64,000 nucleotides of DNA. Origin: Psychromonas sp. Urea-02u-13 (lineage in GTDB: Bacteria; Pseudomonadota; Gammaproteobacteria; Enterobacterales; Psychromonadaceae). The stretch covers positions 1-64,000 of the forward strand of contig NZ_PJBZ01000054.1 in assembly GCF_002835995.1 (NCBI RefSeq). The letters are read 5' to 3'. This document shows positions 3,743 to 33,784 of the stretch, piece after piece. Positions within the stretch are counted from its first letter, which is position 1; every line of letters begins with the position of its first letter. The position numbers and the translations under genes were made by a program. Under the pieces are notes generated by a model. That model saw only the letters and a program-made list of their open reading frames with translations. It had not been told where the DNA came from and ran no database searches.

Positions 3743-3777
3743 AAGTAAGTAGGGACTAGCGTTTCGATAGCCTGTCA

Positions 3778-3813: not shown

Positions 3814-3937
3814 TAGAATAGGTAACTTCTCCCTATCTCTCACTTATTGTATATTTTATCTTTTATTAACCTCCATAATGCATATAACTCTTTATAAGTT
3901 ATATACTTGTAAAAATCACACTGACTCGAGTATTCAA

Positions 3938-7485: not shown

Positions 7486-7511
7486 GAATGGAACATAGTG
7501 ATGGAGATATT

Positions 7512-9511: not shown

Positions 9512-9517
9512 CAAACA

Positions 9518-10216: not shown

Positions 10217-10220
10217 AATA

Positions 10221-16348: not shown

Positions 16349-16777
16349 TTTTGTAAAACGAAACGTTTTTATTAAATTATAAATTGAAAGGACCAACTTA
16401 GTTGGTCCTTTTTTTTACCTCTACAAACCATGCTTATTTCTTTATTACCTGCCTCCTATTAAATCAAAATTGATATTTTTATTAATCTAACTCTTTCGTT
16501 TTTCAAGTAAATCGTGGTTTCATTATTTTTTGTTTTTTATTAGATGTGTAAAATACATATCTCTTTTTTAATAAACAAATCACATTTATACTTCAAAAAC
16601 ATTTCATTTATTTACTCTTTGTTGGTGTTTTTTGTTTTTACTAAAACGGTTACAAAAAATTGAGAGTTATATCCGTATTCGACTGTAATTGTTACGTAAG
16701 TACATTGATCTATAGATAAAGCTACCGTATTCTTTTTAACTATAAATGGTGCCCATCAACAAAAAGAATCTATTATT
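16349..16777. other. Intergenic region upstream of the TOMM-type locus
   Basis: Apart from the porin terminator at its left end, this 429-nt AT-rich stretch holds no gene I can see. It should contain the promoter of the kinase gene at 16778. No operator is recognisable. Confidence 0.5.
16388..16416 (+). terminator. Rho-independent terminator of the porin gene
   Basis: The stem aaggaccaac-ttag-ttggtcctt is followed by seven or more T residues. Confidence 0.85.
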
Positions 16778-19700
16778 ATGACTCTTCTAAACGATAAAAT
16801 TTCCCAGCAGTTCGACTCATCTGCCTATCAATTATTAGAAAAAATAGGCGAAGGTGGATTTGGACATGTGTACCTTGCAAAGCAAGTAAATACTGGCCAG
16901 TCTGTTGCGATTAAATTTTTATCGATTAGCAATGATTTTGATGACAATAAACGCCAACGTTATGTCGAACGTTTTGAACGTGAAACCTTGCTGGGTAGCC
17001 GCTTACAGCATCCTAATATTGTGCGCCTATTAGATAAAGGCGAAAGTGGTGATCTGTTATTTGCCGTATTTGAATACGTTGAGGGGATAACCCTTAAGCA
17101 ACGTTTAACGCAGTCCGGCGCATTATCCGCCGTTGAAGCCACCGATGTGATGACGCAAGTATTAGATGCCTTAGCACATGCGCATCAACAAGGCGTGGTA
17201 CATCGAGACATTAAACCCGCGAATATCATGCTCACAGAAAGTGCCGCCAAATTACATATCAAAGTATTAGACTTTGGTATCGGCACGTTAGTGAATGAAG
17301 CACGTGTTCAAGACTACAAAAGCATTACCTTAACCCAGGAAACCTTAGGTACACCTTCCTACAGCTCACCAGAGCAGTTGCGTGGTGAGCCCGCAACGGT
17401 TAAAACCGACCTTTATGTGTGGGGTTTGGTCTTTATAGAGTGTTTAACGGGTCAACCTGCCATGTCGGGATCGAATTTAGCCTCTATTTTCCATAAACAA
17501 CTTAGCCAAGAAAATGTGGCGTTGCCTAGTGCCATTGTGGGTCACCCTTTAGCTGCTTTATTACGCCGAGTATTACAGAAAAAAGCGCACCTACGCAGTG
17601 TGAACGCCCCTGATTTGTATCATGAGATTCAGCACATTAATGTGGCTAATTTGGTGGGTGAATTACAGTCAGACAATGAATCAAAGGCGACCCTGGTTAA
17701 TGTCGTGTTAGACAACGATGTAACACTGATTAACGATAATCCTATTTTTAATACCGGCCATGTAGAGCGCAAACAATTTACAGTGATGGCGGTGCGTTTA
17801 AATGCACATATTGTCAAGGGAAAAGAGGTCGATCAAGAGGTAATTGATACCTTGCATCGTGATCAAAAAAATCAATGTTTAGATACCGCCATTCGTTATG
17901 GGGCATTTCATGTAGGCACGTTAGGGGATACGCAACTGTTCTATTACGGGTATCCAGCTGCCAGTGATAACGATGCAAGGCTTTGTGCACGAACAGCGCT
18001 GGATTTAATCAGCGATCTTAAGAAACGTAATGCATTATTAAAAGTGAATCAAGGCATTCAATTAGAGATTAAAATTGGTATTCATACAGGGCTATTAACC
18101 TGTTATGCCGATGCAACGCCAGAGGGTGATACTGCCAATATTGCATTACAATTGGTCAGATTGGCGGGCAACGATCAAATATTATGCTCTGATAGCAGTC
18201 AAAAAATACTACAAAGTTACCTTGAATTTAACCCTGTAAGCCATCAACCGTTAGGGGTAAGTTCAACCACTACACCCTTGTTTAATTTAATGGCCGAGCG
18301 CCATGTAGAGGCCTTCGGTTTCTTACGGGCCGCACACAATAACCACCTGTTTATTGGGCGAGAACAAGAGATAAGCGCATTACGTGCGCTGCAAACATCA
18401 GATAGCGAAGTGAAACTGGCACACGTATTTGGCGAAGCGGGTATTGGTAAATCACGCTTAACCTTTGAGTTTAGACATCAAAGCAGTCAATACACCCACT
18501 TTATGGGCCAGTGTTTACCAGAGCATATCAATAACGCCTTATATCCCATCCTGAATATTTTAAAATACAAATACGCGTTAACTAGCTTATCAGACAGTGA
18601 TGCAATCAGTAAATTAAGCACAGAAATTTCATTGTTTGATGAGATTAACCTTGACGATATTTTACCGATATTATGCGCTTGGTTAGGCTACCAACTACTC
18701 GATGACATGGCACCGAGTAGTTTAAGTCCAGATTTGCAAAAACAGTTGTTATTTAAAACGCTCAACGCATTATTAAATAAGCAGGATAACCAACAAGCAA
18801 ACTTATTTGTATTCGAAGATATGCACTGGGCAGACCCAACCAGTCTTGAATTCATTCATCATTTATCAACATCTGAGTCGTTTAAAAACAGCAATAACGT
18901 GTTTATTAGTAACTCTCGCCAACCGTTACCCGCAATATTTGACAGTGAAATTTATCAAAGCATTGCATTAAACAAACTAACCGAGCAGGACAGTAAAAGC
19001 TTTATTAACAACCTTTTTGATAATCAAAATGTCGCAAGCCAAGTGATGAATGCAGTGCTCAGCCGTACCGATGGTATTCCGCTGTTTATTGAAGAATTGG
19101 TGGATATGCTCAAACAAAAGGGCTTGGTCCAACATATCAATGGTATTACCGATTTTATCAATAGTGAAAAAATCGCCCAGCTACCAACCAGCTTGCGTGA
19201 TTCCTTGCAACAAAAACTTGATAGTTTGGTGTACAGCAAAGAGACCGCACAGCTTGCTGCCACTATCGGGCGAGAGTTTGATTATGACCTGTTAGTTGCT
19301 TCATCAAACCGCAGTGAAGCACAATTACAAACAGACTTAGATGAGTTAGTCTGCGCAGATATTATTTTACAAAAGCGTCGTGTTACTGGTGATAGCTACC
19401 TCTTTAAACATGCTTTGGTGAGAGATGCTGCTTATGAGTCAATGCCTTCAAATTCAAGACAAAAAAAACATAAAACAGTTGCTCTTAGTTTAGAATCGCA
19501 ACTAGAAAACCATCAATCAAGTAGTTTATTTCTTATTGCTACACACTTTTCATCTGCTGAAATGTTTAATAAAGCAGTCTCATTTGGGCTTAAGTCTGCC
19601 AATCAAGCCCTAGAACAATTAGCCACTGCAGAGGTTGTATTACAAACCGATCAAATTTTATTATGGAGTGATCATCTAGACAAAGCACAACAGATAGAGA

Positions 19701-20773
19701 TGAAACTTGCTATTAATAATTTGCTTACCACTACCTATATGCAAACTCACGGCTGGGCTTCAGAGAAAGTGAAACAGTGTACTGATATATCGATTGAATT
19801 ATTAAAAGCAAAACCATCTAAAAATAATAATGAAATTATCCCTCTGCTATGGTGGAGAATGTTTACTGGTTTGGTTTCTGGACAACGTAGCGATTTAGAA
19901 AATGTAGAAAAAGAGTTAGAAAGTGTTGTAAAAGAGGCGCCTATTTCTGACAAAGCGAATATTTTTGGTGCATTAGCTTATTATCGTTATACCGGTGGTT
20001 TTGTTGGTAAATATATAACCGATAATGATGAAATAAGTGAAGATGAATTGCCAGCAGTTCAAGTTGCCTTGAAATATGCTTTACGCTCAGCTACTTATAA
20101 CGTGGACATTAAAGAAACAGATCATATCAATATTTATGGTTGGGATTACCAATCATTTGCGTGGGCACTATTAGGACGTGTCTATTGGGATTTAGGGCAA
20201 GTAGATAATGCTTTGAAGTTTGCTCAGAAAGGTGTTGCTAAAGCGCGCTTAATTAATCATCCGCCTTCATTATGTATTTCATTAATGTACTTAAGTATTG
20301 TGCATCAATACCAAGGTGATCATAGCGCCTGTGAGCAATCTGCTTTTGAATTAGTAAATGTCGCTAAAGAAAACAGTATGCCCATTTACGAAGCCTATGG
20401 AGGCCCAATTTATAGCTGGGCAATTAATGATGCGACGCACGAGCAAAAATATCTAAATGGCTTAGAAATTGGAGAGTCTAAGCATGCCGTTGCATTCTTT
20501 TCATCTCTATTTTCAGATGTTTTTATTAATCAGAAAGAGTATAAAAAAGCACTAGAAAGATTAACGTCATGCATTGCGCTTTGTGAGTCTGTTAATGAAC
20601 ATTATTACGAACCACAATTATATCAACGTCGTGCTCTATGCAGACTAGATCACTACCCCGCACAAAATGAAATTGCACTCAACGACTTAAAGAAAGGTAG
20701 AGATATCGCTAAGAAAATGGGTGCGATTCATATTGTTCATGAAATCGAAAAAGATATTCATAAATATTTTTAA
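16778..20773 (+). CDS. Ser/Thr kinase - cyclase-like - ATPase - TPR fusion (TOMM kinase/cyclase type)
   Basis: A 1331-residue cytoplasmic signalling protein. Order: Hanks-type kinase (residues ~15-285; GEGGFG at 24-29, Lys46, HRDIKPAN at 142-149, DFG at 165), class III cyclase-homology domain (~330-500), an NTPase with Walker A GEAGIGKS at 552-559 and a Walker-B-like FVFEDMHWAD, then helical TPR-like repeats to the end. The kinase looks intact. The cyclase domain keeps GDTQLFYYG, but where the first metal-binding Asp is expected it reads MAVRLNAH, so cyclase activity is doubtful. The domain order and length match the 'TOMM system kinase/cyclase fusion' family (TIGR03903), found beside cyclodehydratase genes in Burkholderia and Sorangium. 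The gene opens the locus, 23 nt before the putative precursor. Confidence 0.85.
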   Translation: MTLLNDKISQQFDSSAYQLLEKIGEGGFGHVYLAKQVNTGQSVAIKFLSISNDFDDNKRQRYVERFERETLLGSRLQHPNIVRLLDKGESGDLLFAVFEYVEGITLKQRLTQSGALSAVEATDVMTQVLDALAHAHQQGVVHRDIKPANIMLTESAAKLHIKVLDFGIGTLVNEARVQDYKSITLTQETLGTPSYSSPEQLRGEPATVKTDLYVWGLVFIECLTGQPAMSGSNLASIFHKQLSQENVALPSAIVGHPLAALLRRVLQKKAHLRSVNAPDLYHEIQHINVANLVGELQSDNESKATLVNVVLDNDVTLINDNPIFNTGHVERKQFTVMAVRLNAHIVKGKEVDQEVIDTLHRDQKNQCLDTAIRYGAFHVGTLGDTQLFYYGYPAASDNDARLCARTALDLISDLKKRNALLKVNQGIQLEIKIGIHTGLLTCYADATPEGDTANIALQLVRLAGNDQILCSDSSQKILQSYLEFNPVSHQPLGVSSTTTPLFNLMAERHVEAFGFLRAAHNNHLFIGREQEISALRALQTSDSEVKLAHVFGEAGIGKSRLTFEFRHQSSQYTHFMGQCLPEHINNALYPILNILKYKYALTSLSDSDAISKLSTEISLFDEINLDDILPILCAWLGYQLLDDMAPSSLSPDLQKQLLFKTLNALLNKQDNQQANLFVFEDMHWADPTSLEFIHHLSTSESFKNSNNVFISNSRQPLPAIFDSEIYQSIALNKLTEQDSKSFINNLFDNQNVASQVMNAVLSRTDGIPLFIEELVDMLKQKGLVQHINGITDFINSEKIAQLPTSLRDSLQQKLDSLVYSKETAQLAATIGREFDYDLLVASSNRSEAQLQTDLDELVCADIILQKRRVTGDSYLFKHALVRDAAYESMPSNSRQKKHKTVALSLESQLENHQSSSLFLIATHFSSAEMFNKAVSFGLKSANQALEQLATAEVVLQTDQILLWSDHLDKAQQIEMKLAINNLLTTTYMQTHGWASEKVKQCTDISIELLKAKPSKNNNEIIPLLWWRMFTGLVSGQRSDLENVEKELESVVKEAPISDKANIFGALAYYRYTGGFVGKYITDNDEISEDELPAVQVALKYALRSATYNVDIKETDHINIYGWDYQSFAWALLGRVYWDLGQVDNALKFAQKGVAKARLINHPPSLCISLMYLSIVHQYQGDHSACEQSAFELVNVAKENSMPIYEAYGGPIYSWAINDATHEQKYLNGLEIGESKHAVAFFSSLFSDVFINQKEYKKALERLTSCIALCESVNEHYYEPQLYQRRALCRLDHYPAQNEIALNDLKKGRDIAKKMGAIHIVHEIEKDIHKYF

Positions 20774-20796
20774 TAACTTAAAGGAATGAAAGTGAA

Positions 20797-21933
20797 ATGA
20801 AAGAATTTAATATCCCAGAAAAACTAACTTCTTTACGTCAGTTACACCTGAGATCAAGTGCTAAAATTTGGTCTGAGAGCGAAAGCATTGAACAGTTTTT
20901 AGTAACATGTAATAGCGAAGAACTTGATTTTAGATTTCAAGACCCGAGTGATTATTCAGAATTTAAAGATAAATACTGGGTAACTTTTATGAAAGAATTA
21001 GGGCCTAAAAATCCTTTAAAAGTAGCGTGTAAAGATAACCCATATCTATTTTGGTATGAAGGCGTTGTTCCATTCTTTAACACTACGAATGGAGAGTATT
21101 TAGTTCAACCTTATATCAACAATAGTATTGTCCTAAAATTACCTAAAGCGCCAGAAGTCGGTGGTTATGAGTTAGCTAATGCACTTTCGTCTTATAGCGC
21201 TATTTCTTCGTGGTTGTTTACTGATGAAGACCCGCAAAAACAAAAAGAGTTTGAATATAAAAACTCTGGAGCGAATACATTAGGAGATTTGCATTTCACG
21301 GAAGAGCTTTTTAATACTGATCCTGAATTATTTATTAAAAACGTAGGACGTTACAGTGTTTATTTTTCACCAGCTTACGCAATATTTTATGAAAAAGAAT
21401 ACGGTAAACCTTTATTATATGATAATCCTACTGAATTGATTGCCAATTCACTTGCCCCTATTCAACCTAAACCCTCTTATGATTTGAATAATGATACAGG
21501 TACTTATTTATCATTTGGTGCCGCAATGCAAAAATTAGTTGCATTAATGTGGACAGATAATGATGTTTGGAAACTTATTATAACCAAAGACAAAGATGCA
21601 CATAAACCTGGCCAAACGATTAAATTAATCGAGCAATTATTAGGTTATAACTACCCATTTTATTTAGATCTCGTATTAGAAGAAGATGAAAATATTGTTT
21701 ATGACCAGGCCCAAGATAAATGGGTTTGGTTATATGATGAGGAGACCTGTAATAGTTTGGTACATAAACAAGGTGAGCGTGGACTTAAAGCAGGGAAAAA
21801 ATATAATAATCCTCAACTTCCTTTGCAAGAGTTAATACTTGCTATTCCAGCTCCACCAAAGCAAGCAAGTCTTTCTCCAGTCGCTTTAATGAGCTACAAC
21901 ACTGATAACTCTGGCTATCCATTCTCTTGTTAA
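20797..21933 (+). CDS. Putative TOMM precursor with duplicated leader-like module
   Basis: A 378-residue acidic protein without signal peptide or membrane segment. Its last ~150 residues have the layout I associate with BMA_0021/0022-family TOMM precursors: a helical segment FGAAMQKLVALMWTDNDVWK, then ILAIPAPPKQ, then LSPVALMSYN and the tail MSYNTDNSGYPFSC. The tail offers Ser, Thr and Cys for heterocyclisation. The first half repeats the pattern more weakly (SLRQLHLRSSAKIWSES, IVLKLPKAPE, ELANALSSYSA) without a Cys tail, suggesting an internal duplication. The ATG has an AAGGAATG box upstream. A hairpin follows the stop, then the first YcaO gene. Its role as precursor is inferred; 378 residues is very long for one, and it could be a leader-like accessory protein. 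Confidence 0.6.
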   Translation: MKEFNIPEKLTSLRQLHLRSSAKIWSESESIEQFLVTCNSEELDFRFQDPSDYSEFKDKYWVTFMKELGPKNPLKVACKDNPYLFWYEGVVPFFNTTNGEYLVQPYINNSIVLKLPKAPEVGGYELANALSSYSAISSWLFTDEDPQKQKEFEYKNSGANTLGDLHFTEELFNTDPELFIKNVGRYSVYFSPAYAIFYEKEYGKPLLYDNPTELIANSLAPIQPKPSYDLNNDTGTYLSFGAAMQKLVALMWTDNDVWKLIITKDKDAHKPGQTIKLIEQLLGYNYPFYLDLVLEEDENIVYDQAQDKWVWLYDEETCNSLVHKQGERGLKAGKKYNNPQLPLQELILAIPAPPKQASLSPVALMSYNTDNSGYPFSC

Positions 21934-21938
21934 CCTAT

Positions 21939-21962
21939 GCCCAGCGACCTCAGTCGCTGGGC
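21939..21962 (+). promoter_or_regulatory. Strong hairpin between putative precursor and YcaO gene
   Basis: A perfect 10-bp GC-rich stem (gcccagcgac / gtcgctgggc) with a ctca loop lies 6 nt after the precursor stop and 20 nt before the next ATG. There is no T-run. It could partly terminate transcription or protect the upstream mRNA, either of which would give more precursor than enzyme. Confidence 0.7.
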
Positions 21963-21982
21963 ACTTCTAATGAATAAACTAT

Positions 21983-24148
21983 ATGAATATTTTTGATCAA
22001 CGGTTAGATTGGCACCGTAAATTTACTGTTGCTACTGTTTCAAATTTGCACGTGAAATTTGTGTCTGAGTCTATATCTTCATTATTAGAAATTGAAACCT
22101 ACAACGCTGTTAATGATTTTATTAGTAGTGGAAAAACACTTATAGACTATTCGATGGGGGTAAACCCTCAGTACGCAGCCTATTTACATCATTGTATTCA
22201 ATCTCTTGTTGATTCTGACTATCTGGCTCCATTGGATGTGGAGGGGGAGTCGTATTTTCATCCTGATTTTAAGGTAGCCTACGAACTTAAATCGGAATCT
22301 GATGGTTATAGTCTTGTTATGTTATCGCAATGCATTGAAGAAGATCGCATAAAAGCACTGTTGATTGCGACGAAGATAACCGAAAAAACTAATATAGTGA
22401 TTGTTGATGACTATTTAGATCCGCGTATAAAAGAGATAGAACAACACTTTAATTCACTGAAAGAATCTTGGTTATTACTTAAACTCACCGGTGAAAGGGC
22501 GTTAATTGGTCCTTTTTTTTCAGGACTGGCAGGAAGGGCGTGCTGGCAGTGTTTACAGTATCGGATGAAAGCAAATGATGTATTAAAATGGATTCAGTAT
22601 GATCAGGGGGAAAATAGAGCATCCCCAATTTCGGTAGCCAGACTTAACTGTAAAGAAACCATAGAGACCTATTTAACTGATGCTTTACCGTTAATAAAGC
22701 GCTTGTTAATAGAGAAGAATACTGACAGCTTATATGAGCTATCAGTATTAAGTGATATTCCGCGATTACATCCTGTTATTTATCGACCTCAGTGCCCGTC
22801 ATGTGGAGACGATAAATATTATGAGAAGCAAGTAAGCAAAGCACTTAGGTTGTCTTTATCAGTCAAGACGCAATATAAAGATGGTGGCGTTCGTAGCCTT
22901 ACACCAGAAAAAACTAACGCGAAACTGACTGGTTTAATAAGCCCCTTATCTGGTCTTTTAACGCATTTATCAATGTTGTCAAAAGATACAAATAAAACCA
23001 GTAAAATATATCGAAGTGGTTTTTATCAATCTCCGATGACACTTGATTTCCTCACTTATAAACTATCAAATTCAACTTTTATGCATACCACCATGGGCAA
23101 AGGTATTAGCGAAGAGCAATCAAAAGCCAGTGCTTTAAGTGAAGCAATTGAACGATTAGCATCACAATTTCAAGGTGATGAGCCACATCATTTATCTGCG
23201 TTAATAAATGATGATTACATTTCTCCTCATCAGTTATCCCCTTATAGTGAGTCTCAATATCATGATTTTTGTGTGCAAGAAAACAATGTCGAGCACCAAC
23301 TGTATTCTGTTGCTAAGTACGATAAAAATGTGCCAATACATTGGACGCCTGTATGGTCATTAAGCCAACATAAAACGCAATATTTACCCTTAAGTTATTG
23401 TTATGCGCATACTCCTTATGCAGAGCAAAAATTTAGTCGTTTCTACCATAATGGTGGTGCTGCGGGTAACACATTAGAAGAAGCGCTGTTACAAGCATTT
23501 TTAGAAATAGTAGAACGAGATGCGGTGTCAATCTGGTGGTATAACCAATTACAAAAACCAGCTATTCAATGGAATGTTGTAAGCCCTATTTTGATAGAGC
23601 AAATGCAATATACTTTAGGGCAAGAATGGGAGTATTGGACGCTAGACCTAACGCATGACTTAAATATCCCTGTTGTTGCTGCCATTGCCCAGCACAAAAC
23701 AGATAACACATTTAGTTTTGGCTTTGGTTGTCACATCGATCCAATTATTGCCTGCCAGCGTGCATTAACAGAGTTATGTCAAATAACTGAAATACGCCAT
23801 AGTAATGTTGCCCCTTTTGAATTTGATAAAATAAAAGAGAAAGACTATTTATTCCCGTCAAAAGCAACCACTGAACTGTCTGATTTTATGACTCCTAAGA
23901 ATGTAGATATCGTTGATGATTTACATTTCTGTTTCGAACAAGCAACGAATGCTGGATTAGATGTTTTAGCCTTAAATTACACACGTCCAGATATGGTATT
24001 GCATACTGCTAAAGTTATCTTGCCTGGCGCATGCCACATATTTCCATACTTTGCTGCCGAGCGTCTTTATCAAGTACCGGTTAAAATGGGCTGGTTAGAA
24101 AAACCAAAATTGGAAAGTGAATTAAACCAGCAGGCGTTGTTAATATAA
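21983..24148 (+). CDS. YcaO cyclodehydratase fused to E1-like docking domain (zinc-site copy)
   Basis: A 721-residue fusion as used to make azolines in TOMM peptides. The N-terminal ~280 residues form the precursor-docking/E1-like part with a likely four-Cys zinc site: CWQC (187, 190) in GPFFSGLAGRACWQC and CPSC (271, 274). The C-terminal half is a YcaO/SagD-type ATP-dependent cyclodehydratase with GKGISEEQSKASALSEAIER, EEALLQAFLEIVERDAVSIWW and RALTELCQ, the expected nucleotide- and Mg-binding stretches. The C-terminus (LNQQALLI) lacks the PxPxP tail seen in many azoline-forming YcaO enzymes. It is about 50% alike by eye to the gene at 26073 through the YcaO half. It follows the putative precursor across a hairpin. 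Confidence 0.88.
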   Translation: MNIFDQRLDWHRKFTVATVSNLHVKFVSESISSLLEIETYNAVNDFISSGKTLIDYSMGVNPQYAAYLHHCIQSLVDSDYLAPLDVEGESYFHPDFKVAYELKSESDGYSLVMLSQCIEEDRIKALLIATKITEKTNIVIVDDYLDPRIKEIEQHFNSLKESWLLLKLTGERALIGPFFSGLAGRACWQCLQYRMKANDVLKWIQYDQGENRASPISVARLNCKETIETYLTDALPLIKRLLIEKNTDSLYELSVLSDIPRLHPVIYRPQCPSCGDDKYYEKQVSKALRLSLSVKTQYKDGGVRSLTPEKTNAKLTGLISPLSGLLTHLSMLSKDTNKTSKIYRSGFYQSPMTLDFLTYKLSNSTFMHTTMGKGISEEQSKASALSEAIERLASQFQGDEPHHLSALINDDYISPHQLSPYSESQYHDFCVQENNVEHQLYSVAKYDKNVPIHWTPVWSLSQHKTQYLPLSYCYAHTPYAEQKFSRFYHNGGAAGNTLEEALLQAFLEIVERDAVSIWWYNQLQKPAIQWNVVSPILIEQMQYTLGQEWEYWTLDLTHDLNIPVVAAIAQHKTDNTFSFGFGCHIDPIIACQRALTELCQITEIRHSNVAPFEFDKIKEKDYLFPSKATTELSDFMTPKNVDIVDDLHFCFEQATNAGLDVLALNYTRPDMVLHTAKVILPGACHIFPYFAAERLYQVPVKMGWLEKPKLESELNQQALLI

Positions 24149-24177
24149 ACGATCTAAATTAGGTAAAAGAGTGAGTT

Positions 24178-26022
24178 ATGTGCGGTCTTATTTTTTATTC
24201 GTCATCTTCAAAACAGGTTAACCACAGCCAATTTGTGCGTGCCTTAAATACCTTAAATAGCCGCGGTCCAGATAATAAGGGGCTGTGGTTTTCTGAAACA
24301 AAGAATGTCGCTTTAGGTCATACTCGCCTACAAATTAATGGTGGCGACAGTGCATCGCAGCCGATGTGTGGTGATGTTGATAACACGCTAGTGGTTGCGG
24401 TTAATGGTGAAATTTACAATGATCGCGCACCACTTGAATTACAAGGCATTCGTTTTAATACTGCGAGTGACAGTGAGTTTTTATTACATCAGTTTCATTT
24501 ATCAGGTATTAGCGGATTAGCTGAGCTCGATGGCGAATTTGCATTTGTCATTGTTGATAAAAAAAGTCATCAGGTGACATTAGGGCGTGATCGCCATGGC
24601 ATTAAACCACTGTTTTATGCCTTTATTGAGGGAGAGCTCATTGCTGCTTCTGAAATTAAAGCGCTACTCGCTTATGGTGTGCCGGCTAAGTGGAATAAAG
24701 ATTACTTGTCAGGGGCTGAATATTTTCTACAGGATGCTTCACAAACCTTTGTTGAGGGTATTTATAGCGTGCCACCCGGTCATGTTGTACAGGTATCAGG
24801 TTCCACGTTAACCGTTATTCCTTATATTGAACGTTCACCTTTAAACCCAAGCCTATTCGCAGTATCAACATTGAGTTATAGCGAAGCTTGTACTCAATTT
24901 GAAACATTATTAGTAGATGCGATTGATAAACGTCTATTAAAAGATCAGACCAATAACACCTATTTGAGCAGTGGTATTGATTCCTCAATCATTACTGCAA
25001 TAGCGTCTGGTTTATCAGATTCAATGCATTCCTACACCATTGCCTTTCCCGATAAAGCGATTGATGAAAGTCAGCAAGCCAAGCAGTTTGCAAAACAGCT
25101 AGCTATCACTAATGATACTGTACTCGTTGATGACTATATTCTCGCTGATCATTTGCAATCGGCAGTCTTACAATCTGAAATGGCTATTCCTAATATCAAT
25201 GTAGCGGCTAAATTATACCTGAGTAAACAATTGGCCTTAGCAGGAAAGAAAACCGTACTAACCGGTGAAGGCGCTGATGAATCACTGCTCGGATATGGAT
25301 TTTTCAGGCAAGATTTAAGCGCGCCTTATACAAGCGTGTCGCAATTTCCGGCAACATGGCATACACATTTACAGGCTGTAAAAAACAAACTCGGTTGCTT
25401 ACCTGCACAGGCGGTGCATGCAACAGCAAATGGCGTGTTATTAACTAGTTTACGTGCGCCTCAGTTTCAGCTTGAAAGCACCATGAATAACTTTTCAACC
25501 TTGTTGATAGCGCCCAGTGCGTCACCGATCACTACCTCACAGATAACGGTATCTCAACAGTTGCATTACCAATCCGTGTTTCAAACCTATAATTTGGGTG
25601 CCTTGGCGGATAGAACCGAAATGGCGAACGGTATTGAAGGGCGTCCACCCTTTTTAGATAATCAATTAGTGGCATTTATCCATGGTTTACCACTGAGTTA
25701 TAAATTTGATGGCGGCGTGGATAAGCGTATTTTGCGAGACGTTGCCACGAAATATATGCCTAAGCAATACACTGCCATTGCTAAAAAACCGTTTATCAGC
25801 AGTCCTGCTAGTTTGCACACCGTGGGGCCGTTGGCGGAAGTGTTCCAAAGCTACTTCTTAGATTTGACACACTTACCCGATTTCTATGATAAACAAAAAG
25901 TATCTAACCTCTATCACCATGCACTGCAATTACCAATAGCACAGCAAGCCCAGTTAGATCCCGTATTTATGTTTTTATGCAGTGTGATGATATTACAAGC
26001 CGCGTATAAGATGGAATTCTGA
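24178..26022 (+). CDS. Asparagine-synthetase-like glutamine amidotransferase
   Basis: A 614-residue AsnB-family protein. The class II glutaminase domain is complete: Cys2 after the initiator Met, then RGPDNKG, GHTRLQ, NGEIYND and DSEF. The synthetase domain has the pyrophosphate loop LSSGIDSS, the later GEGADE and the MANGIEGRPPFLD and KRILRD motifs. It should form an acyl-adenylate and transfer ammonia from glutamine or join an amine. Lying between two YcaO genes with short gaps (29 and 50 nt), it is more likely a tailoring enzyme of this pathway than the housekeeping asparagine synthetase. Its target (a core side chain, the C-terminal carboxylate, or a ring closure as in lasso peptides) cannot be read from sequence. 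Confidence 0.85.
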   Translation: MCGLIFYSSSSKQVNHSQFVRALNTLNSRGPDNKGLWFSETKNVALGHTRLQINGGDSASQPMCGDVDNTLVVAVNGEIYNDRAPLELQGIRFNTASDSEFLLHQFHLSGISGLAELDGEFAFVIVDKKSHQVTLGRDRHGIKPLFYAFIEGELIAASEIKALLAYGVPAKWNKDYLSGAEYFLQDASQTFVEGIYSVPPGHVVQVSGSTLTVIPYIERSPLNPSLFAVSTLSYSEACTQFETLLVDAIDKRLLKDQTNNTYLSSGIDSSIITAIASGLSDSMHSYTIAFPDKAIDESQQAKQFAKQLAITNDTVLVDDYILADHLQSAVLQSEMAIPNINVAAKLYLSKQLALAGKKTVLTGEGADESLLGYGFFRQDLSAPYTSVSQFPATWHTHLQAVKNKLGCLPAQAVHATANGVLLTSLRAPQFQLESTMNNFSTLLIAPSASPITTSQITVSQQLHYQSVFQTYNLGALADRTEMANGIEGRPPFLDNQLVAFIHGLPLSYKFDGGVDKRILRDVATKYMPKQYTAIAKKPFISSPASLHTVGPLAEVFQSYFLDLTHLPDFYDKQKVSNLYHHALQLPIAQQAQLDPVFMFLCSVMILQAAYKMEF

Positions 26023-26072
26023 CGTGTTACTCGCAACTAATTTTCAGAAAACAATGAAATAGACAGGAAAAA

Positions 26073-28214
26073 ATGACTGAACTTCTCAATTGGCATCCAA
26101 AATTTAAAGCATTTAACCTTGAAAGTGGCGACATGTTATTACTCAGTGAAATGAGTAGTTTCGCATTACCTAAAAAACAGTTTAGCGCGTTAACGTTAAT
26201 TGATGGCAAACGCTCAACTGATGACATTATCGCAATCTTGTTGGATCGCCAGCAAGATATCGCGACTTTTCTGTATCAAGTGAGCCAGTTTAAGCAACAG
26301 CAGTTATTGGTGGATGTGAGAGAAGCTGGTGGTTTAAAGGCTAATGAGCTGTGTTTTGTTACTCAAAGGTGTTCTTTGAGTAAACCCATTTATAAAAATC
26401 AACATTATGCTGTTGTTAACCTCACTGAAAATACAGCACCTGCGCTTAGCTTATGGCTTGAATGTTTTACTCAACTTGAATGTCTGACTTGCCAATACGT
26501 TACTTTTATTGTTTGTGATGATCTCTTAAACCCTGCGTTACTCGCTGAAGTCGGAAAACATGATGCTGTGTGCATTATTAAAATAACCGGCGAGCAGCTA
26601 CAAATTGTATCGTTACTCGGGCTGGTTAATGCGTCACAATATTTTGCTAAGTTACAACATCGTTTAGCGCATAATAATCCCACATTAGGTTTGATTGCCA
26701 CCTGCTTTCCGGATGCTGATTTAATGTCTGCTTATATCGCTAATCAGCCATTAACAGCGATGCTATTACCTATTTTACAGCAACAACTAACGAATCAACT
26801 AACAGCTGTTAAACCACAACTCACTGTAATTAATAGAGCGAGCGGGGCGGTTGAACAGCACCCTATTAGTTTGATAAACGAACATCAGGCCGATTTTAAA
26901 ACACAAATATTATCAAAAATCACGTTAACCACTTGTCCTGCTCAATTTAATAAAGATGGTGGCTCACGAACGGTCTGTCCACAGCAAACCGTAGACAACA
27001 TCACGCCCTTTATTAGCCCAATAACGGGGCTTATTACCCATATTCAGGCGTTACCTGACAGCCTTGATAAACCAGTGAAAATCTACACCACTGCCTTTTT
27101 CAAGAAACCTGCAATAAATCGCCTGACTAATATCGATAATGGCAGTTTTGTACATCAGTGCATGGGCAAAGGTGTTTCGCATAACCAATCACAAGCCAGT
27201 GCGTTGTGTGAAGCGATTGAACGTTTCAGTGCGCATTTCCAAGGCGATGAGCCTCTACATTTGAGTAAACCTGATGTTTTAGCTAAACGTTATTATGACT
27301 TCCAACAGTTAGTCCCTTATAGTGTCTTGCAATATCAGCAGTTTAATGATGAAAATCATCCAGACTCATTATTAAAACAAGCAGCTATCGCTTATCAAGG
27401 TGAAGCGATACATTGGTTACCAACATGGTCGTTGACTGAGCATGAACAAGTTCACCTGCCTCTCACACATTGTTTTGCCAATATTCCCTTCGATGATGAT
27501 AAATTTGCTCGCTGGCACTCTAACGGCTGTGCTGCCGGTAATACCTTAGAGGAAGCGATTTTACAGGCTTTATTTGAATTGATTGAACGTGATGCCGTGG
27601 CTATCTGGTGGTATAACCGCATCGAACGTCCGGCGTTTGATTTAACGCGACTTGATAAAGACAATTTAAAGGTCATTGATGAAACCTTAGCTGATCATGA
27701 TTATTGGGTATTAGATTTAACCCATGATATTGAGGTACCCGTGATGATAGCGATTGGGCAACATAAACAAAATGGTGGGTTAAGTTTTGGTTTTGGTTGT
27801 CATCTGCAAAGTGACTTGGCTGCGCAACGGGCACTCACGGAATTGTGTCAGTTGATTCCAATACGGAATCAAAAAGACGCGCCTTTTGATTTTGATGCGG
27901 TGCAACCTGATGCTTATTTATTCCCATTGGATAGCATCAAAACTGTACCGAAGGATATTGAAAGTAGCGGTGATATAAAATTGGATATTGAAATGCTGGT
28001 GGATAAATTGCAGTCATTAGGATTAGAAACCTTGGCGCTTGATTATTCTCGCGCGCCTTTGCCAATAAAAAGCGCAAAAGTGTTTGTACCTGGGTTATGT
28101 CATATTTGGCCACAATTTGATAATCAGCGCCTTTATCAAACGCCGGTTAAACTGGGCTGGTTAGATAAAGCCTATTGTGAACAAACGATAAATCAACAAG
28201 CTTTGTATGTATAG
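26073..28214 (+). CDS. YcaO cyclodehydratase fusion, paralogue without the zinc cysteines
   Basis: A 713-residue paralogue of the protein at 21983-24148. The YcaO half is well kept (GKGVSHNQSQASALCEAIER, EEAILQALFELIERDAVAIWW, RALTELCQ; C-terminus INQQALYV). The N-terminal half keeps its fold-level layout but not the zinc site: the stretch aligned to GRACWQCLQYR reads NASQYFAKLQHR, and the CPSC position has no Cys. It may have lost docking or act as a partner of the other copy, or modify a different residue type. The start is an ATG with an AGGAAAAA box. It ends the enzyme cluster, with an imperfect hairpin 18 nt downstream. Confidence 0.87.
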   Translation: MTELLNWHPKFKAFNLESGDMLLLSEMSSFALPKKQFSALTLIDGKRSTDDIIAILLDRQQDIATFLYQVSQFKQQQLLVDVREAGGLKANELCFVTQRCSLSKPIYKNQHYAVVNLTENTAPALSLWLECFTQLECLTCQYVTFIVCDDLLNPALLAEVGKHDAVCIIKITGEQLQIVSLLGLVNASQYFAKLQHRLAHNNPTLGLIATCFPDADLMSAYIANQPLTAMLLPILQQQLTNQLTAVKPQLTVINRASGAVEQHPISLINEHQADFKTQILSKITLTTCPAQFNKDGGSRTVCPQQTVDNITPFISPITGLITHIQALPDSLDKPVKIYTTAFFKKPAINRLTNIDNGSFVHQCMGKGVSHNQSQASALCEAIERFSAHFQGDEPLHLSKPDVLAKRYYDFQQLVPYSVLQYQQFNDENHPDSLLKQAAIAYQGEAIHWLPTWSLTEHEQVHLPLTHCFANIPFDDDKFARWHSNGCAAGNTLEEAILQALFELIERDAVAIWWYNRIERPAFDLTRLDKDNLKVIDETLADHDYWVLDLTHDIEVPVMIAIGQHKQNGGLSFGFGCHLQSDLAAQRALTELCQLIPIRNQKDAPFDFDAVQPDAYLFPLDSIKTVPKDIESSGDIKLDIEMLVDKLQSLGLETLALDYSRAPLPIKSAKVFVPGLCHIWPQFDNQRLYQTPVKLGWLDKAYCEQTINQQALYV

Positions 28215-28231
28215 GGATACAAAAGCCCGGT

Positions 28232-28264
28232 GTAATAACGTGTAATATTTATTACAGGTTATTA
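28232..28264 (+). terminator. Stem-loop after the second YcaO gene, possible terminator
   Basis: The arm gtaataacgtgtaat pairs with attacaggttatta, one mismatch, with a very short loop. No T-run follows, so termination is uncertain. The rest of the 291-nt gap to the next gene is AT-rich with nothing recognisable. Confidence 0.4.
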
Positions 28265-28505
28265 TCTGTCGCCTGACTTTATAGATACAAGTTTAAAATA
28301 ATCATTATTATTAGTATGTTAGTGTGTAAATTGTCATTTTTTCAGTAATTTCTTCACTGCGAGTAAAATAGATTGAAAGGTTCATTTCCTGTAATAAGTT
28401 GTAATGGTTATCTTTGCATTAAGCCGCTAATCTACACCTAGTTTAATTAATTGCTCCTGCATGCAGACGTATTTTCGTTTGTTTCAGGATATTTAGGAGT
28501 AGAAT

Positions 28506-29033
28506 ATGGGTCAATTAATGTTGCAGGATAATTTAACCGGACTTGCAAACCGTAAACAGTTTGTTATCGCTTTTGAAAATTCAGTAAAAATGAGCATTCA
28601 AAAGAAAAGAAACATCTCTCTACTCTTAATCGATTTAGATGGTCTCAAATCAATTAACGAAGCACACGGTCATAAATCGGGTGATTTAGTCATTAGCACT
28701 TTTGCGAGTCTATTATCGCAATGTATTCACTTTACCGATCAAGTTTTTCGCTACGGCGGCGACCAATTTACTGTGATTTTAAATCACACAGAAGATACCT
28801 CAGTGACGGACCTCGTCAGACAAATATGCAAAGTATTAGACAGTAATGTCATTATGAGAGAGTTTGACATTGCATGCTCTGTTGGCCGTGCTGATGTCAC
28901 TGATCACGATGATTTTAACAGTTTGGTTGAACGCACTGAACAATCACTTAATATTAGAAAAAACATACAAATAGCAACTGGTATCAATTATGCGGATTAC
29001 CCGCTTTATGATTTAGTGGCAAATGGTCAGTAA
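28506..29033 (+). CDS. Short stand-alone GGDEF protein with variant GGDQF motif
   Basis: A 175-residue protein that is little more than one GGDEF domain (DNLTGLANRKQF near the start, IDLDGLKSINEAHGHKSGD, then RYGGDQFTVIL). The signature has Gln in place of the Glu that helps bind metal, and the RxxD inhibitory site upstream is absent (reads HFTD). Diguanylate cyclase activity is therefore doubtful, and it may bind nucleotide or a partner instead. No sensor or membrane segment. It lies between the YcaO cluster and the FHA gene, in the same direction, separated from the former by 291 nt. Membership of the TOMM locus is only positional. Confidence 0.8.
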   Translation: MGQLMLQDNLTGLANRKQFVIAFENSVKMSIQKKRNISLLLIDLDGLKSINEAHGHKSGDLVISTFASLLSQCIHFTDQVFRYGGDQFTVILNHTEDTSVTDLVRQICKVLDSNVIMREFDIACSVGRADVTDHDDFNSLVERTEQSLNIRKNIQIATGINYADYPLYDLVANGQ

Positions 29034-29086
29034 GATTTGCTGCATAAATATGATGTTAGTGCATTGAATTGCATGGAGAAATAAAA

Positions 29087-30037
29087 ATGACAAGAATGAT
29101 TAATAACAATACCGAAGAGCAAATCACGTTATTGATTCAGCATATATTTGGTCGTCATCCAAGCACTTCGCATACGGTTTTGCAAAATCCAGATGCCTCG
29201 CGCATGCATGCAACTATTCTTTGGGATGGTGAGGATTGGTTAGTGCAGGACTCAAGTAGTAACGGTACCTTTGTAAACGGTAACCCGGTATTACGTGGCA
29301 CGATGCAAAAATTAAACAAAGGGGATAAAATCCATTTTGCGAGTTTAGCGGGTGACGCGTGGGAAATACTGGAAGTGGTTGCACCTAAAAGTTTGCTTGT
29401 GCCAGTGACTGCGGGTTTAAAAACCATTGAATTAGATAATATCGCTATTTTACCCAACGAAGAACTAGCAGAAGTTACGTTGTATCAATCACCTAATGGC
29501 CACTGGGTCTGCGAAAGCAAGTCGGGTATTTCGGTATTAAAAACCGGTGATTTGGTCGGTTGTGAAGGTCATACTTGGCGTTTTATTGAAGCCCGAGCAA
29601 GCGAAGAAACGACCTATTTAGTGTCAAACGAGCTACCTACGTCTCCACAAGTGGGCATCTTTTTTAATGTTAGCCAAAATGAAGAGCACGTATCATTCAA
29701 ATTTAAAATGGGTGATCATGTTTATGATTTAGGTAAACGAAACCACCATTATTTGATGTTACTGTTAGCGCGTAAACGTTTAGAAGATCGTGAAAGTGGT
29801 GTGTGTGATGCTGAGCAAGGTTGGATGGATAAAGACCAACTTTGTAAAATATTGGGGTTAAGTGAAAACCATATTAATATTCTTGTTTACCGTTTTAGAA
29901 AACAAGTGATTAGTTTACTGCCTCGTTCATTAAACTTTCCGCAGGCGATTGAAAGAAGAACCTGCGAAATTCGTTTTGCTTACGAAGATATCGACATTTC
30001 AGGTGGCTCAATTGTTGAAGTCGCGAGTAACCAGTAA
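29087..30037 (+). CDS. FHA-domain protein with C-terminal winged helix
   Basis: The N-terminal forkhead-associated domain (residues ~20-95) has the phosphothreonine-binding residues: GR (22-23), SRMHA, and SSSNGTFVNG. A linker follows, and the last ~110 residues look like a winged-helix DNA-binding domain (DKDQLCKILGLSENHINILVYRFRKQV). FHA domains read phosphothreonines made by Hanks-type kinases, and a kinase of that type opens the locus at 16778, so this is a candidate transcription factor for its output. I chose the ATG at 29087, preceded by GGAGAAA; an ATG 18 nt upstream gives MHGEIK. A terminator follows. The kinase-FHA link is inferred. Confidence 0.82.
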   Translation: MTRMINNNTEEQITLLIQHIFGRHPSTSHTVLQNPDASRMHATILWDGEDWLVQDSSSNGTFVNGNPVLRGTMQKLNKGDKIHFASLAGDAWEILEVVAPKSLLVPVTAGLKTIELDNIAILPNEELAEVTLYQSPNGHWVCESKSGISVLKTGDLVGCEGHTWRFIEARASEETTYLVSNELPTSPQVGIFFNVSQNEEHVSFKFKMGDHVYDLGKRNHHYLMLLLARKRLEDRESGVCDAEQGWMDKDQLCKILGLSENHINILVYRFRKQVISLLPRSLNFPQAIERRTCEIRFAYEDIDISGGSIVEVASNQ

Positions 30038-30080
30038 CCAGTAACCAGTTACTAATAAGATGCGTTATTCATCCAGTTAA

Positions 30081-30108
30081 AATCCCAAATTATTTGGGAT
30101 TTTTTTTC
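30081..30108 (+). terminator. Rho-independent terminator after the FHA gene
   Basis: The stem aatcccaaat-tatttgggatt is followed by eight T residues. It marks the end of the transcription block that may include the TOMM locus. Just upstream, gtaaccagtaaccagtaacc is a short tandem repeat. Confidence 0.85.
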
Positions 30109-30142
30109 CTAAAAAACGGTAAGTTATATTTCGTTAGAAACA

Positions 30143-30367
30143 ATACCAATTGGAGTAAGTATGTGGTCTAAGTTTTACGCAGATAAAATAGCTTAATTCA
30201 AGGCGGAAGTTGACGCCTTTCGAGCGGTTAACTTGGTTAACCCTCTACCGGTGAATTAAATTAAAGACTTTAATTCATTAATGGTTGTTCCCTTTACGAA
30301 ATTTTCAACGAAGAAGTAAGTTATTTTAGCCAGTAAAATAGATCAGCTATTTATTTCGATTGGTATA
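30143..30367 (-). mobile_element. MITE-like element, family B, copy 1
   Basis: Ends are short inverted repeats (aataccaattgg and, at the right, cgattggtataat). It is in the opposite orientation to the copies at 44495 and 54865: its reverse complement reads cgtaaagggaacaaccatta and cttccgccttgaatt, matching the 44495 copy. It is non-coding and fills most of the gap between the FHA gene terminator and the small gene at 30460. Confidence 0.65.
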
Positions 30368-30459
30368 ATAGTGAAATTTTATCATTATTTGTCTTGCTGA
30401 CTGCGGTGCTTGCGGTAATATCCCCCTTCTTAAAAAATTAAACTTAAAAGGGCAATAAA

Positions 30460-30720
30460 ATGGCACGTCAAGTGACTTATAAATTCAAAAAGAAGCTTAA
30501 AACAATCCAATTTTCATACGGTATCTTTCACGATATTTACGAAGCGGTTGCTGATGCTGAAGGCGTTGATTTAACAAACTTTCTTGAGATGGAAAAACAA
30601 CTAGCAATGAGTTGCCGTGGCCAGGGAATTTTAAAAAACCACCGTCAAACAGAATTTGCTGCTATGGGGTTTTCAGATATAAAATTTGTTCGTGATGAAG
30701 AGAAAGATGCAAAAAAATAA
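30460..30720 (+). CDS. Small conserved protein, DUF2960-like
   Basis: An 86-residue basic protein without signal or membrane segment. The pattern YKFKKKLKTIQFSYGIFHDIYEAVADAEGVDLTNFLEMEKQ resembles the DUF2960 family of short proteins from Vibrio and Shewanella. Its function is unknown. It has a clear AAGGG ribosome-binding site and overlaps the next gene slightly, so they are probably co-transcribed. Confidence 0.7.
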   Translation: MARQVTYKFKKKLKTIQFSYGIFHDIYEAVADAEGVDLTNFLEMEKQLAMSCRGQGILKNHRQTEFAAMGFSDIKFVRDEEKDAKK

Positions 30721-31420
30721 TATTCCCTGTGCGAGTTTAACAAGTGCTAGTTCAACAAGAGCGAGCACTGCAGAGGAAATAGAGTACCTAAAACACCGAC
30801 TACAACAAACCCTAAGCCCACGTAAACGATTACTAAAAGCGATTTTAAACACGCTGGTAATGTGGGGTGGGGCGTTACTCGGTTTATTGTTAATCAGTGG
30901 TGTTGCGAGTTCTTTAGCGCATTACAGTGAGTTACTTAGCCAAATCCTCTCTTATTCAGGGGGACAGAAATTAGTGATTGTAGGTACTGCATTGTATGCA
31001 CTATTTAGCACTTATCTATGGTTAACCACAACAGAGAATACCTACCCCCTCATTTTACAAGACATCACAGACGCAACCGTCGTTGATGAAACTTACCCTA
31101 TACAAGCCGTGTGTCGATTTCAGGAACCTGAAATGGGCGGTTTTATCTATTTATTGAAAGTCTCTGAACAAGCTATTTTTGTACTTTACGATTATCAAAG
31201 CCAAACTAAGCCCGATAATGTATTTTTAATACAAGACAAGCTAATCTTAAGCAAAGCATCTCATTGTGATCATTATGTGAAACGACAGTTTACTGGTGAG
31301 CCCCTTATTGTTAAAAACACATACCCACTTACGCTTCCTCCTGAACAATGGCCGGTGCCCGATACATGGTTATCAATGCCTTGGTTAGATATAACGTCAT
31401 ATTTTAGTCAAAAACAATAA
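30707..31420 (+). CDS. Hypothetical membrane protein with two transmembrane helices
   Basis: About 237 residues from the ATG at 30707, which overlaps the preceding gene by 14 nt; in-frame starts at 30686 (TTG) and 30695 (ATG) are also possible. After a charged helical region (TAEEIEYLKHRLQQTLSPRKRLL) come two hydrophobic segments (VMWGGALLGLLLISGVASSL and KLVIVGTALYALFSTYLW), then a C-terminal soluble domain. I recognise no family. The arrangement suggests an inner-membrane protein with both ends in the cytoplasm. Confidence 0.65.
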   Translation: MQKNNIPCASLTSASSTRASTAEEIEYLKHRLQQTLSPRKRLLKAILNTLVMWGGALLGLLLISGVASSLAHYSELLSQILSYSGGQKLVIVGTALYALFSTYLWLTTTENTYPLILQDITDATVVDETYPIQAVCRFQEPEMGGFIYLLKVSEQAIFVLYDYQSQTKPDNVFLIQDKLILSKASHCDHYVKRQFTGEPLIVKNTYPLTLPPEQWPVPDTWLSMPWLDITSYFSQKQ

Positions 31421-31586
31421 TATTCATAAACCCTACAAGATATATTTGTGAATATTATAAAAGTAATCTTCTTATTGATAATAATGCGCATTAAAAGCAA
31501 ACATCATTTAAAAACTGCCCTACTATATAAGTGTTAGTTATATTGGTTTTGATTTTTAGTTCATAAAAGCATAAAGAGAGGTGGAT

Positions 31587-31874
31587 ATGAGTAAAAATAA
31601 CATGGATAAAATAGGTTATAAGGTGATCGTTACTGGTCGTGTTCAGGGGGTTGGTTTTCGATATTTCACGGCAAAAGAGGCTAATAAATTAACTATTTAT
31701 GGCCACGCTAAGAATTTAATCGACGGCTCTGTAGAGGTAAAAATGTATGGCGAAAAGCCACAATTACTCATACTACTGAAATGGCTAGAGAAGGGTCCTA
31801 AAACATCTATTGTTGATGACATTAAGGTGACTGAAACAGTATATATTCATAAAGAAGGCTTTTTATGCCTCTAG
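31587..31874 (+). CDS. yccX: Acylphosphatase
   Basis: A small enzyme that hydrolyses acyl phosphates. The catalytic Arg is in GRVQGVGFRYFT and the catalytic Asn in HAKNLIDGSVEV, the two signature motifs of the family. I chose the ATG at 31587, with GAGAGGTGG directly upstream; a GTG 6 nt earlier lies inside that box. Length (95 residues) is normal. It stands alone, 65 nt before the chemoreceptor gene. Confidence 0.93.
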   Translation: MSKNNMDKIGYKVIVTGRVQGVGFRYFTAKEANKLTIYGHAKNLIDGSVEVKMYGEKPQLLILLKWLEKGPKTSIVDDIKVTETVYIHKEGFLCL

Positions 31875-31939
31875 GTATCTATTTATCATACCAAATTGAC
31901 TATAATATTGATCTATATCACCTTTAAAGGAACTGTTAA

Positions 31940-33556: not shown

Positions 33557-33583
33557 GAAAGTGAACTGGAAGGTTTAATATTG

Positions 33584-33618
33584 AAAGGCTAGAAGGCATT
33601 TATGCGTTCTAGCCTTTT
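33584..33618. terminator. Bidirectional terminator
   Basis: The stem aaaggctagaa (33584-33594) pairs with ttctagccttt, ending in a T-run on the plus strand. It lies between the convergent chemoreceptor and DUF2496 genes. Confidence 0.8.
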
Positions 33619-33622
33619 GCCT

Positions 33623-33784
33623 TTATTTAGTCTGTGCTTTCTTTTGGAAATCATTTAATACAATTTGAAGCGCTTCAACGGCAGTTTGATTATCTATTTT
33701 ATTTTCTTCAAGTAACTGAATTAAATCCACTGCAATTTGTACTGCTGGTGGCGCATCGGCTAGTTTATGTTGTTCTTCACTCAT
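33623..33784 (-). CDS. ybaM: DUF2496 family protein (YbaM-like)
   Basis: A 53-residue small protein. It begins MSEEQHKLADAPPAVQIAVD and continues LIQLLEENKIDNQTAVEAL, matching E. coli YbaM (NAPDDVKLAVDLIVLLEEN). In E. coli ybaM also follows priC, and here its ATG overlaps the end of the priC gene. Function is unknown. Confidence 0.85.
   Translation of the reverse strand: MSEEQHKLADAPPAVQIAVDLIQLLEENKIDNQTAVEALQIVLNDFQKKAQTK

Follow-up and report, generated by a model that had tools for sequence, protein, structure and literature searches.

What does a gene cluster make that sets two YcaO enzymes between a large Ser/Thr kinase and an FHA-domain protein, and what is the kinase doing there? The question is raised by a seven-gene locus of the marine gammaproteobacterium Psychromonas sp. 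Urea-02u-13, carried on a stretch of 64,000 nucleotides (contig NZ_PJBZ01000054.1) that was analysed as a whole and is called the window here. The reading favoured below, to which we give a probability of about 0.58, is that of one operon in which the Ser/Thr-Cys tail of a nitrile hydratase-like carrier protein is cyclised by YcaO enzymes under the control of a kinase and an FHA protein. The genes of the locus and the putative signals that bound it are as follows.

16386..16412, + strand: terminator-like hairpin at the end of the upstream porin unit (pattern scan; 12-pair stem and T run).
16778..20773, + strand: KIN, 1331 residues, Ser/Thr (Hanks) kinase, predicted pseudo class III cyclase, AAA_16 (STAND-like) ATPase and TPR (TIGR03903).
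20797..21933, + strand: PRE, 378-residue precursor-like carrier with the conserved tail SPVALMSYNTDNSGYPFSC (TIGR03795 score, alignments with relatives).
21874..21930, + strand: stretch coding for the final 19 residues of PRE, the conserved tail that includes the candidate cyclised pair Ser377-Cys378 (alignment A6).
21983..24148, + strand: YC1, E1-like/RRE and YcaO cyclodehydratase fusion with four putative zinc Cys at 187, 190, 271 and 274 (PF02624, TIGR03882).
24178..26022, + strand: ASN, AsnB-like glutamine amidotransferase/synthetase with Cys2 and SSGIDSS (TIGR01536).
26073..28214, + strand: YC2, second YcaO fusion, lacking the zinc Cys and placed in a different old lineage (PF02624, residues, tree).
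28506..29033, + strand: GGD, GGDEF-like protein with the motif altered to GGDQF (PF00990, translation).
29087..30037, + strand: FHA, FHA-domain protein of 316 residues, C-terminal part with no assigned fold (PF00498, 49-member alignment).
30079..30103, + strand: terminator-like hairpin 3' of the FHA gene (pattern scan).

An initial annotation of this DNA, made from the letters alone, had proposed a TOMM-type locus carrying the kinase family TIGR03903. Profile searches agree: KIN scores 957.9 bits against a cut-off of 705.75, and the seven open reading frames (ORFs) lie at 16778-30037, all on the + strand, with the domains given for them, apart from the points taken up below. For the FHA gene, whose ORF runs from 29069 to 30037, the ATG at 29087 is the more likely start because it lines up with relatives. 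The intergenic gaps measure, in order, 23, 49, 29, 50, 291 and 53 bases, the 291 preceding the GGDEF-like gene. Beyond the kinase start codon, the only + strand hairpin match besides that at 30079-30103 lies at 19842, within the kinase ORF; these hairpins are pattern matches of putative function, the region holding seven in total against a mean of 11.9 in shuffles. We infer that 16778-30037 forms a single transcription unit. The gene order is kept in Psychromonas aquimarina, P. ossibalaenae and Thalassomonas sp. RHCl1, which speaks against a chance grouping: the two Psychromonas loci keep all seven genes, YC2 preceding ASN there and following it in the window, and the Thalassomonas order is KIN-PRE-YcaO-YcaO-ASN-FHA.

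A candidate for what the locus acts upon is the tail of PRE. PRE aligns with 25 precursors of related loci to give alignment A6, 26 precursors chosen out of 63 listed ORFs plus PRE, and 23 of the 26 match TIGR03795 at E ≤ 0.01. Mean pairwise identity in A6 is 48% in the tail (last 21 columns) and 26% in the body of the second half, figures that apply to the tailed kind only, Cys-less partner precursors being excluded. PRE ends in GYPFSC, and thus in a Cys, NHLP-Burk precursors ending in Cys or Cys-Cys. The pattern [IV]AL..Y.......PF[ST]C is kept in Psychromonas, Thalassomonas, Shewanella, SAR324 and Variovorax, the tail SPVALMSYNTDNSGYPFSC of the window standing beside APIALMNYDVDDYGMPFTC, APVALNRYNIDDSAFPFTC, LPIALAAYNDDGNSYPFTCC (Shewanella), EPIALSLYNDTGPPYPFTCS (SAR324) and AIALTSYNNTGDPYPFTC (Variovorax). 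Burkholderiaceae tails show the same pattern with L or V replacing P, as in the Burkholderia form EAVALAAYCDAGPSYLFTCC, whose partner precursor lacks a terminal Cys. Asp370 and Cys378 are invariant in the four long precursors accompanying the AsnB-like gene. Cores of NHLP precursors were described as hypervariable by Cox and others 2015 (PMC4603692). Unlike that statement on NHLP, the cores of the kinase/FHA branch are not hypervariable, and this constancy points to a single conserved function rather than to an arms-race antibiotic.

In the alignment the N-terminal half of PRE pairs with that half of fused precursors which has no Cys, and a BLAST of its two halves against each other found no internal repeat; fused tandem precursors are known for Delftia and Acidovorax (PMC2887384). 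A profile search of the PDB with PRE returned non-significant matches only, among them nitrile hydratase alpha at E about 0.17. No further tailed precursor was found by eye among ORFs of at least 25 residues in 28200-34000, the gap upstream of KIN being listed less finely.

Both YcaO proteins are far above the PF02624 cut-off of 25.7 bits (YC1 253.9, YC2 250.3). TIGR03882 is passed by YC1 (72.5, cut-off 36.9) and gives no match to YC2, and for TIGR03604 the two stay below the cut-off of 219.25, at 215.9 and 179.0. Their nearest solved chains are those of LynD, TruD and MusD; YC1 aligns with LynD (4v1t) over residues 136-716 at E 1.1e-104 and with TruD (4bs9) at E 3.3e-98, and YC2 aligns with LynD over residues 283-707 only (E 1.8e-79). 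Ten acidic, Arg or Gln positions, which we take, after YcaO structures, to belong to the ATP site, are kept, with E/D exchanges only, in both window proteins and 45 others (n = 47, some genomes appearing twice and row L066 being cut short). A loss of ATP-binding residues, named in the initial annotation as one finding that would overturn it, is thus not seen. Three of the four zinc Cys line up in the Thalassomonas counterpart of YC1.

The two enzymes are nevertheless not copies of one another. In a tree of 43 rows, from which L025, L033 and L066 had been removed as repeats or cut and in which some branches are long, YC1 falls in a 4-row clade and YC2 in a 13-row clade, each at 100/100 support; a recent tandem duplication was rejected on these separate clades, and YC1 and YC2 are, judged by the tree, two old lineages. 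In P. hadalis, Shewanella and Marinomonas the fetched locus has no YcaO besides one of the YC2 lineage. Activity in this zinc-less lineage, if found, would be new enzymology.

KIN appears equipped as a kinase. Its Pkinase, Guanylate_cyc and AAA_16 domains exceed their Pfam cut-offs, TPR_12 remaining at 27.0 bits below its 30.1. Across 51 aligned kinases (the window protein and 50 others, a few genomes represented twice), the catalytic Lys is present in 50, the remaining row being cut, and HRD, DFG, the Walker A Lys and the activation-loop Thr184, presumably the equivalent of PknB Thr171, are present in all 51. Class III nucleotide cyclases have two metal-binding Asp; the first is missing from every one of the 51 proteins, so the cyclase domain is probably catalytically inactive. 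A defence-system reading was rejected: in 25 of 35 PADLOC matches, those listed, the matched stretch is the kinase domain, and such matches are uninformative because any Hanks kinase would yield them.

On the reader side, Gly22, Arg23, Ser38, His41, Asn59 and Gly60, the FHA phosphothreonine site, are invariant in 49 of 49 aligned proteins, and the domain resembles the GarA and EmbR chains. The winged helix ascribed to the C-terminal part by the initial annotation is not clearly supported by any profile, there being no Pfam wHTH match and a weak Sigma70_r4_2 match in three of the 49 family members (best E 0.053). The protein between YC2 and FHA, first given as a GGDEF, bears GGDQF, as do its counterparts in P. 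aquimarina and P. hadalis, and because of this motif it is probably inactive as a diguanylate cyclase.

The association of these genes was followed from the FHA protein. A scan of genome contigs with the FHA alignment, a query holding no neighbour information, found 134 relatives; the 80 best were used, with stretches of up to 10 kb on each side; such a scan leans toward kin of the window FHA. Locus genes were matched by phmmer with the window proteins and a 7-sequence profile, which distant members may escape, and a KIN match was taken as at least 250 residues and more than 100 bits. Of the 80 FHA loci, 67 hold a KIN match (weak, at 100-119 bits, in L062, L090 and L096), and in 66 of the 67 all KIN matches are on the FHA strand. 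A search of 34 genomes with such YcaO loci returned a single KIN match at E ≤ 1e-60 in 28, and the nearness of KIN to FHA is therefore not due to an abundance of such kinases. The FHA protein is a frequent partner of kinase loci and widespread there. YcaO occurs in 39 of the 80 loci, 36 of which have a tailed precursor. The other three are L102, cut at a contig end; L069, with neither a tailed ORF upstream nor KIN; and L047, with a diverged YcaO and a 252-residue neighbour ending IFTS. Two loci have a tailed precursor and no full YcaO, the YcaO being cut by the contig end in both.

The order KIN-precursor-YcaO-FHA recurs in Comamonadaceae, Shewanella and Marinomonas, and FHA-KIN-precursor(s)-YcaO is found in Burkholderia and SAR324. 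The initial annotation had placed such kinase loci mainly in Burkholderia and Sorangium; many marine gammaproteobacteria, together with SAR324 and a Desulfatitalea metagenome-assembled genome, are among the best 80 FHA relatives. PRE relatives are present in three of the 24 family genomes, counting the own one, and again in just these three of 394 sampled from the order; among 369 from the class, again with the own genome, two have TIGR03903 above its cut-off, making the kinase family rare; and TIGR03795 matches one of 398 genomes sampled from the phylum at E ≤ 1e-4, a limit at which the own genome is missed. P. aquimarina and P. ossibalaenae carry extra kinases, each followed by a 130-residue precursor (kinases to precursors 2:2 and 3:3), and a KamA-like radical SAM gene on the opposite strand.

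Several relatives depart from the window in content. The P. hadalis locus (L041, 3831-9172) has two other precursors, with tails YPLC and YVFTC, a KamA-like radical SAM gene, a methyltransferase, a zinc-less YcaO as the only one in the fetched locus, and no AsnB. A TIGR03903 kinase at L029 2659-7863 (L080 lies on the same contig) reaches 1011.8 bits, above the score of KIN, and adjoins an FHA gene in a genome (86% complete) with no YcaO match. FHA loci L076, L079, L084, L085, L088, L094, L095, L098, L100 and L103 have a short kinase match (about 300-540 residues) and no YcaO match; the L084 kinase covers positions 2-446 of TIGR03903 only. A family of 180-residue proteins is found near five Burkholderia-type loci (L083 18224-18766, - strand; L086, L093, L099 and L119), mostly on the opposite strand.

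ASN matches TIGR01536 at 324.1 bits (cut-off 267.1), its Cys2 and SSGIDSS motifs are also present in relatives, and its nearest solved chain, 7ylz, is named a hydroxyamidotransferase. AsnB-type enzymes also perform other amide chemistry. The version of the locus with two YcaO genes and an AsnB-like gene was seen in four genomes, those of the window, P. aquimarina, P. ossibalaenae and Thalassomonas sp. RHCl1, the last three being the only ones of the 80 named loci in whose stretches AsnB was seen. In the literature found, AsnB is joined with cyclodehydratases, YcaO and RiPPs (ribosomally synthesised and post-translationally modified peptides) in a single passing mention (PMC12710340).

As the initial annotation had noted, the locus has no SagB-like dehydrogenase, by TIGR03605 and by phmmer. 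The own genome has four TIGR03605 matches, on other contigs and all under the cut-off; 34 relatives' genomes (L053 excluded) gave 17 matches at E ≤ 1e-6, none on a KIN-bearing contig; and phmmer with two SagB-like proteins found none in the ORFs of 86 loci or of the window.

These parts suggest a scheme in which YC1, YC2 or both would use ATP to cyclise the C-terminal Ser/Thr-Cys of PRE to one or more azoline rings, with YC1 docking the substrate through its E1-like/RRE half. Because the locus lacks a dehydrogenase, the ring would be expected to remain at the azoline state. In the four-genome variant ASN could introduce a further modification, the simplest being amidation of either the exposed C-terminus or the conserved Asp370. 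KIN would act as a STAND-type sensor kinase whose signal may be the cognate carrier, because in two Psychromonas relatives every carrier is matched by a kinase of its own, and KIN would autophosphorylate on the invariant Thr184. The FHA protein would then read this phosphothreonine and adjust the operon or its enzymes, such a relay being the simplest reading of the signalling genes.

Several observations weigh against this scheme. PRE groups with the precursor family by alignment, though its score of 40.8 bits is just below the TIGR03795 cut-off of 41. Cys is missing from a minority of tails (PFSSI, PFSTI, PFTSV, PFTAS). The C-terminal PxPxP typical of azoline-forming YcaOs is absent, the window proteins ending in NQQALLI and NQQALYV and others in NPQALYV-like forms. 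The link of FHA to KIN is loosened by 13 of the 80 loci with no KIN match in the stretch (that of L042 lies just outside) and by 12 with only a short or cut kinase. In 19 loci a long KIN occurs with no YcaO match, at least L067, L097 and L111 being cut by a contig or locus end, so KIN and FHA are not YcaO-specific; in Psychromonas sp. GLG-1 (L044, a 12.4-kb contig) KIN, GGD and FHA were found and no precursor or YcaO. Finally, GGDEF or AGDEF is kept in neighbours of five other genera, and a cyclic-di-GMP link may therefore exist in the Moritella, Pseudoalteromonas and Oceanospirillum loci among them.

The KIN/FHA loci lacking YcaO include four with other contents. L045 (6486-8136), L048 (6480-8740), L049 (8035-8736) and L052 (7573-9694) carry a CxxCH protein of 448-501 residues and a small protein ending A[ST]W, with no Pfam or NCBIfam match for the L045 and L048 members; they are perhaps a second tail type on the same kinase module.

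If the ring is formed as proposed, a more specific form of the scheme is that the azoline tail stays on the protein, as a sensor or cofactor, and serves as ligand or substrate of a dedicated STAND kinase with its FHA reader, rather than being secreted as an antibiotic. It would make one fact of the kinase-to-carrier pairing, the core kept over distant lineages, and the absence from the locus of a dehydrogenase and of any recognised exporter or protease, and we put it forward tentatively, at well under even odds.

Clearly less probable than the favoured reading is a classical secreted two-peptide bacteriocin, its tail being cleaved and released by a protease and a transporter encoded outside the cluster, a route put forward for NHLP-Burk; a two-peptide product was suggested for paired or fused precursors in the 2010 paper (PMC2887384), and type I secretion genes do lie about 8-13 kb upstream. 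The earlier statement that there is no exporter is true of the operon, but LapB-kind type I secretion genes are present in the window at 3878-12161, accompanied by LapG-like and LapD-like genes. Their transporter is of the LssB/LapB type (914.9 bits, cut-off 693.1) and far below the NHLM exporter cut-offs (304.9 against 853.3; 255.4 against 709.4), and the core varies little, unlike that of most bacteriocins. Among 495 flanking ORFs of the 86 loci, the 22 largest clusters, inspected by eye, include no protease or SagB-kind dehydrogenase, exporters and proteases not having been searched as families; the two widest clusters are an amidohydrolase in 8 marine loci and an ABC ATPase whose nine ORFs, from 7 loci, are found on both strands.

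Both sets of neighbours deserve a brief description. The amidohydrolase, not seen in the window locus, is an Amidohydro_2 gene at L053 6523-7716 (Pfam on the L053 member only), with family members also at L054-L058, L066 and L068; in bottromycin biosynthesis an amidohydrolase stands alongside YcaO. The stretch 1022-12161 of the window holds RTX/cadherin-type protein pieces, the LssB/LapB-type ABC transporter with a C39-like domain, HlyD and TolC-type genes, and LapG-like and LapD-like genes that score below their NCBIfam cut-offs; it is probably a Lap adhesin secretion system, for an RTX adhesin. Outside the locus, the window also encodes the periplasmic nitrate reductase NapA at 41989-44484 (1604.5 bits).

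It is improbable, though it would explain the YcaO ends without a PxPxP-like motif, that the YcaOs make another backbone change such as a thioamide or amidine, or modify another target, with the tail serving as a docking tag. The missing zinc Cys and TIGR03882 match of YC2, and the further amide chemistry of AsnB-type enzymes, point the same way; against this, the solved structures closest to them are the cyclodehydratases LynD, TruD and MusD, and the Ser/Thr-Cys at the end of the tail is what YcaO enzymes usually act on. Least credible of all are two adjoining systems, a kinase-FHA(-GGDEF-like) signalling unit controlling something else beside a YcaO/AsnB RiPP unit, for which L045, L048, L049 and L052 with KIN and FHA lacking YcaO might speak, but the FHA gene comes last, beyond the YcaO set, and shares its stretch between the terminator-like hairpins, and the two gene orders recurring from Comamonadaceae to SAR324 keep kinase, precursor, YcaO and FHA together.

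The operon with a cyclised carrier tail under kinase-FHA control, as favoured here, can be set beside four known systems. PknB-type Ser/Thr kinases are paired in mycobacteria with the FHA readers EmbR and GarA, and the window shares with them an intact Hanks kinase, the activation-loop Thr and a GarA/EmbR-like FHA domain. KIN differs from PknB in a predicted pseudo-cyclase and a STAND/TPR tail that replace the PASTA repeats, and the window FHA protein differs from the mycobacterial readers in its C-terminal part, which has no assigned fold. With the cyanobactin enzymes LynD and TruD, YC1 has the E1-like/RRE and YcaO layout in common, whereas YC2 departs from LynD in its more limited alignment; PatA/PatG-type proteases were not searched as families. 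MprC, a characterised NHLP YcaO, forms azolines on a folded NHLP carrier, and in the Mpr pathway (MprC/MprD/MprE), as proposed for the window, the C-terminal core of such a carrier is modified by a YcaO cyclodehydratase; Mpr differs in its oxidase MprD and ten precursors, and no kinase is mentioned in the available part of the paper (PMC12455567).

The closest counterpart is the NHLP-Burk TOMM, in which TIGR03795 precursors occur with a large Ser/Thr kinase (Haft, Basu and Mitchell 2010, PMC2887384). The kinase has thus stood beside Burkholderia TOMM genes since 2010 with no role given in the literature found on TIGR03903, NHLP-Burk, TIGR03795 or TOMM kinases, including the available parts of PMC6997564 and PMC4513790; the former lists a TOMM kinase cyclase whose transcription is lowered in a myxobacterium. 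A frequent partner, the FHA protein, and a candidate phosphosite, Thr184, can now be offered; a word search that left most subscription journals outside gave no paper linking FHA to this YcaO family. If the ring stays on the carrier, YcaO chemistry would have found a new role, in signalling. NHLP-Burk and the window share the kinase, a nitrile hydratase-related precursor ending in Cys or Cys-Cys and the cyclodehydratase-docking fusion. To this known core the window adds a second YcaO lineage, the AsnB-like enzyme, the long 378-residue carrier and the GGDEF-like gene, and the FHA partner and conserved tail, for which the available part of PMC2887384 has no mention, are additions to the NHLP-Burk picture.

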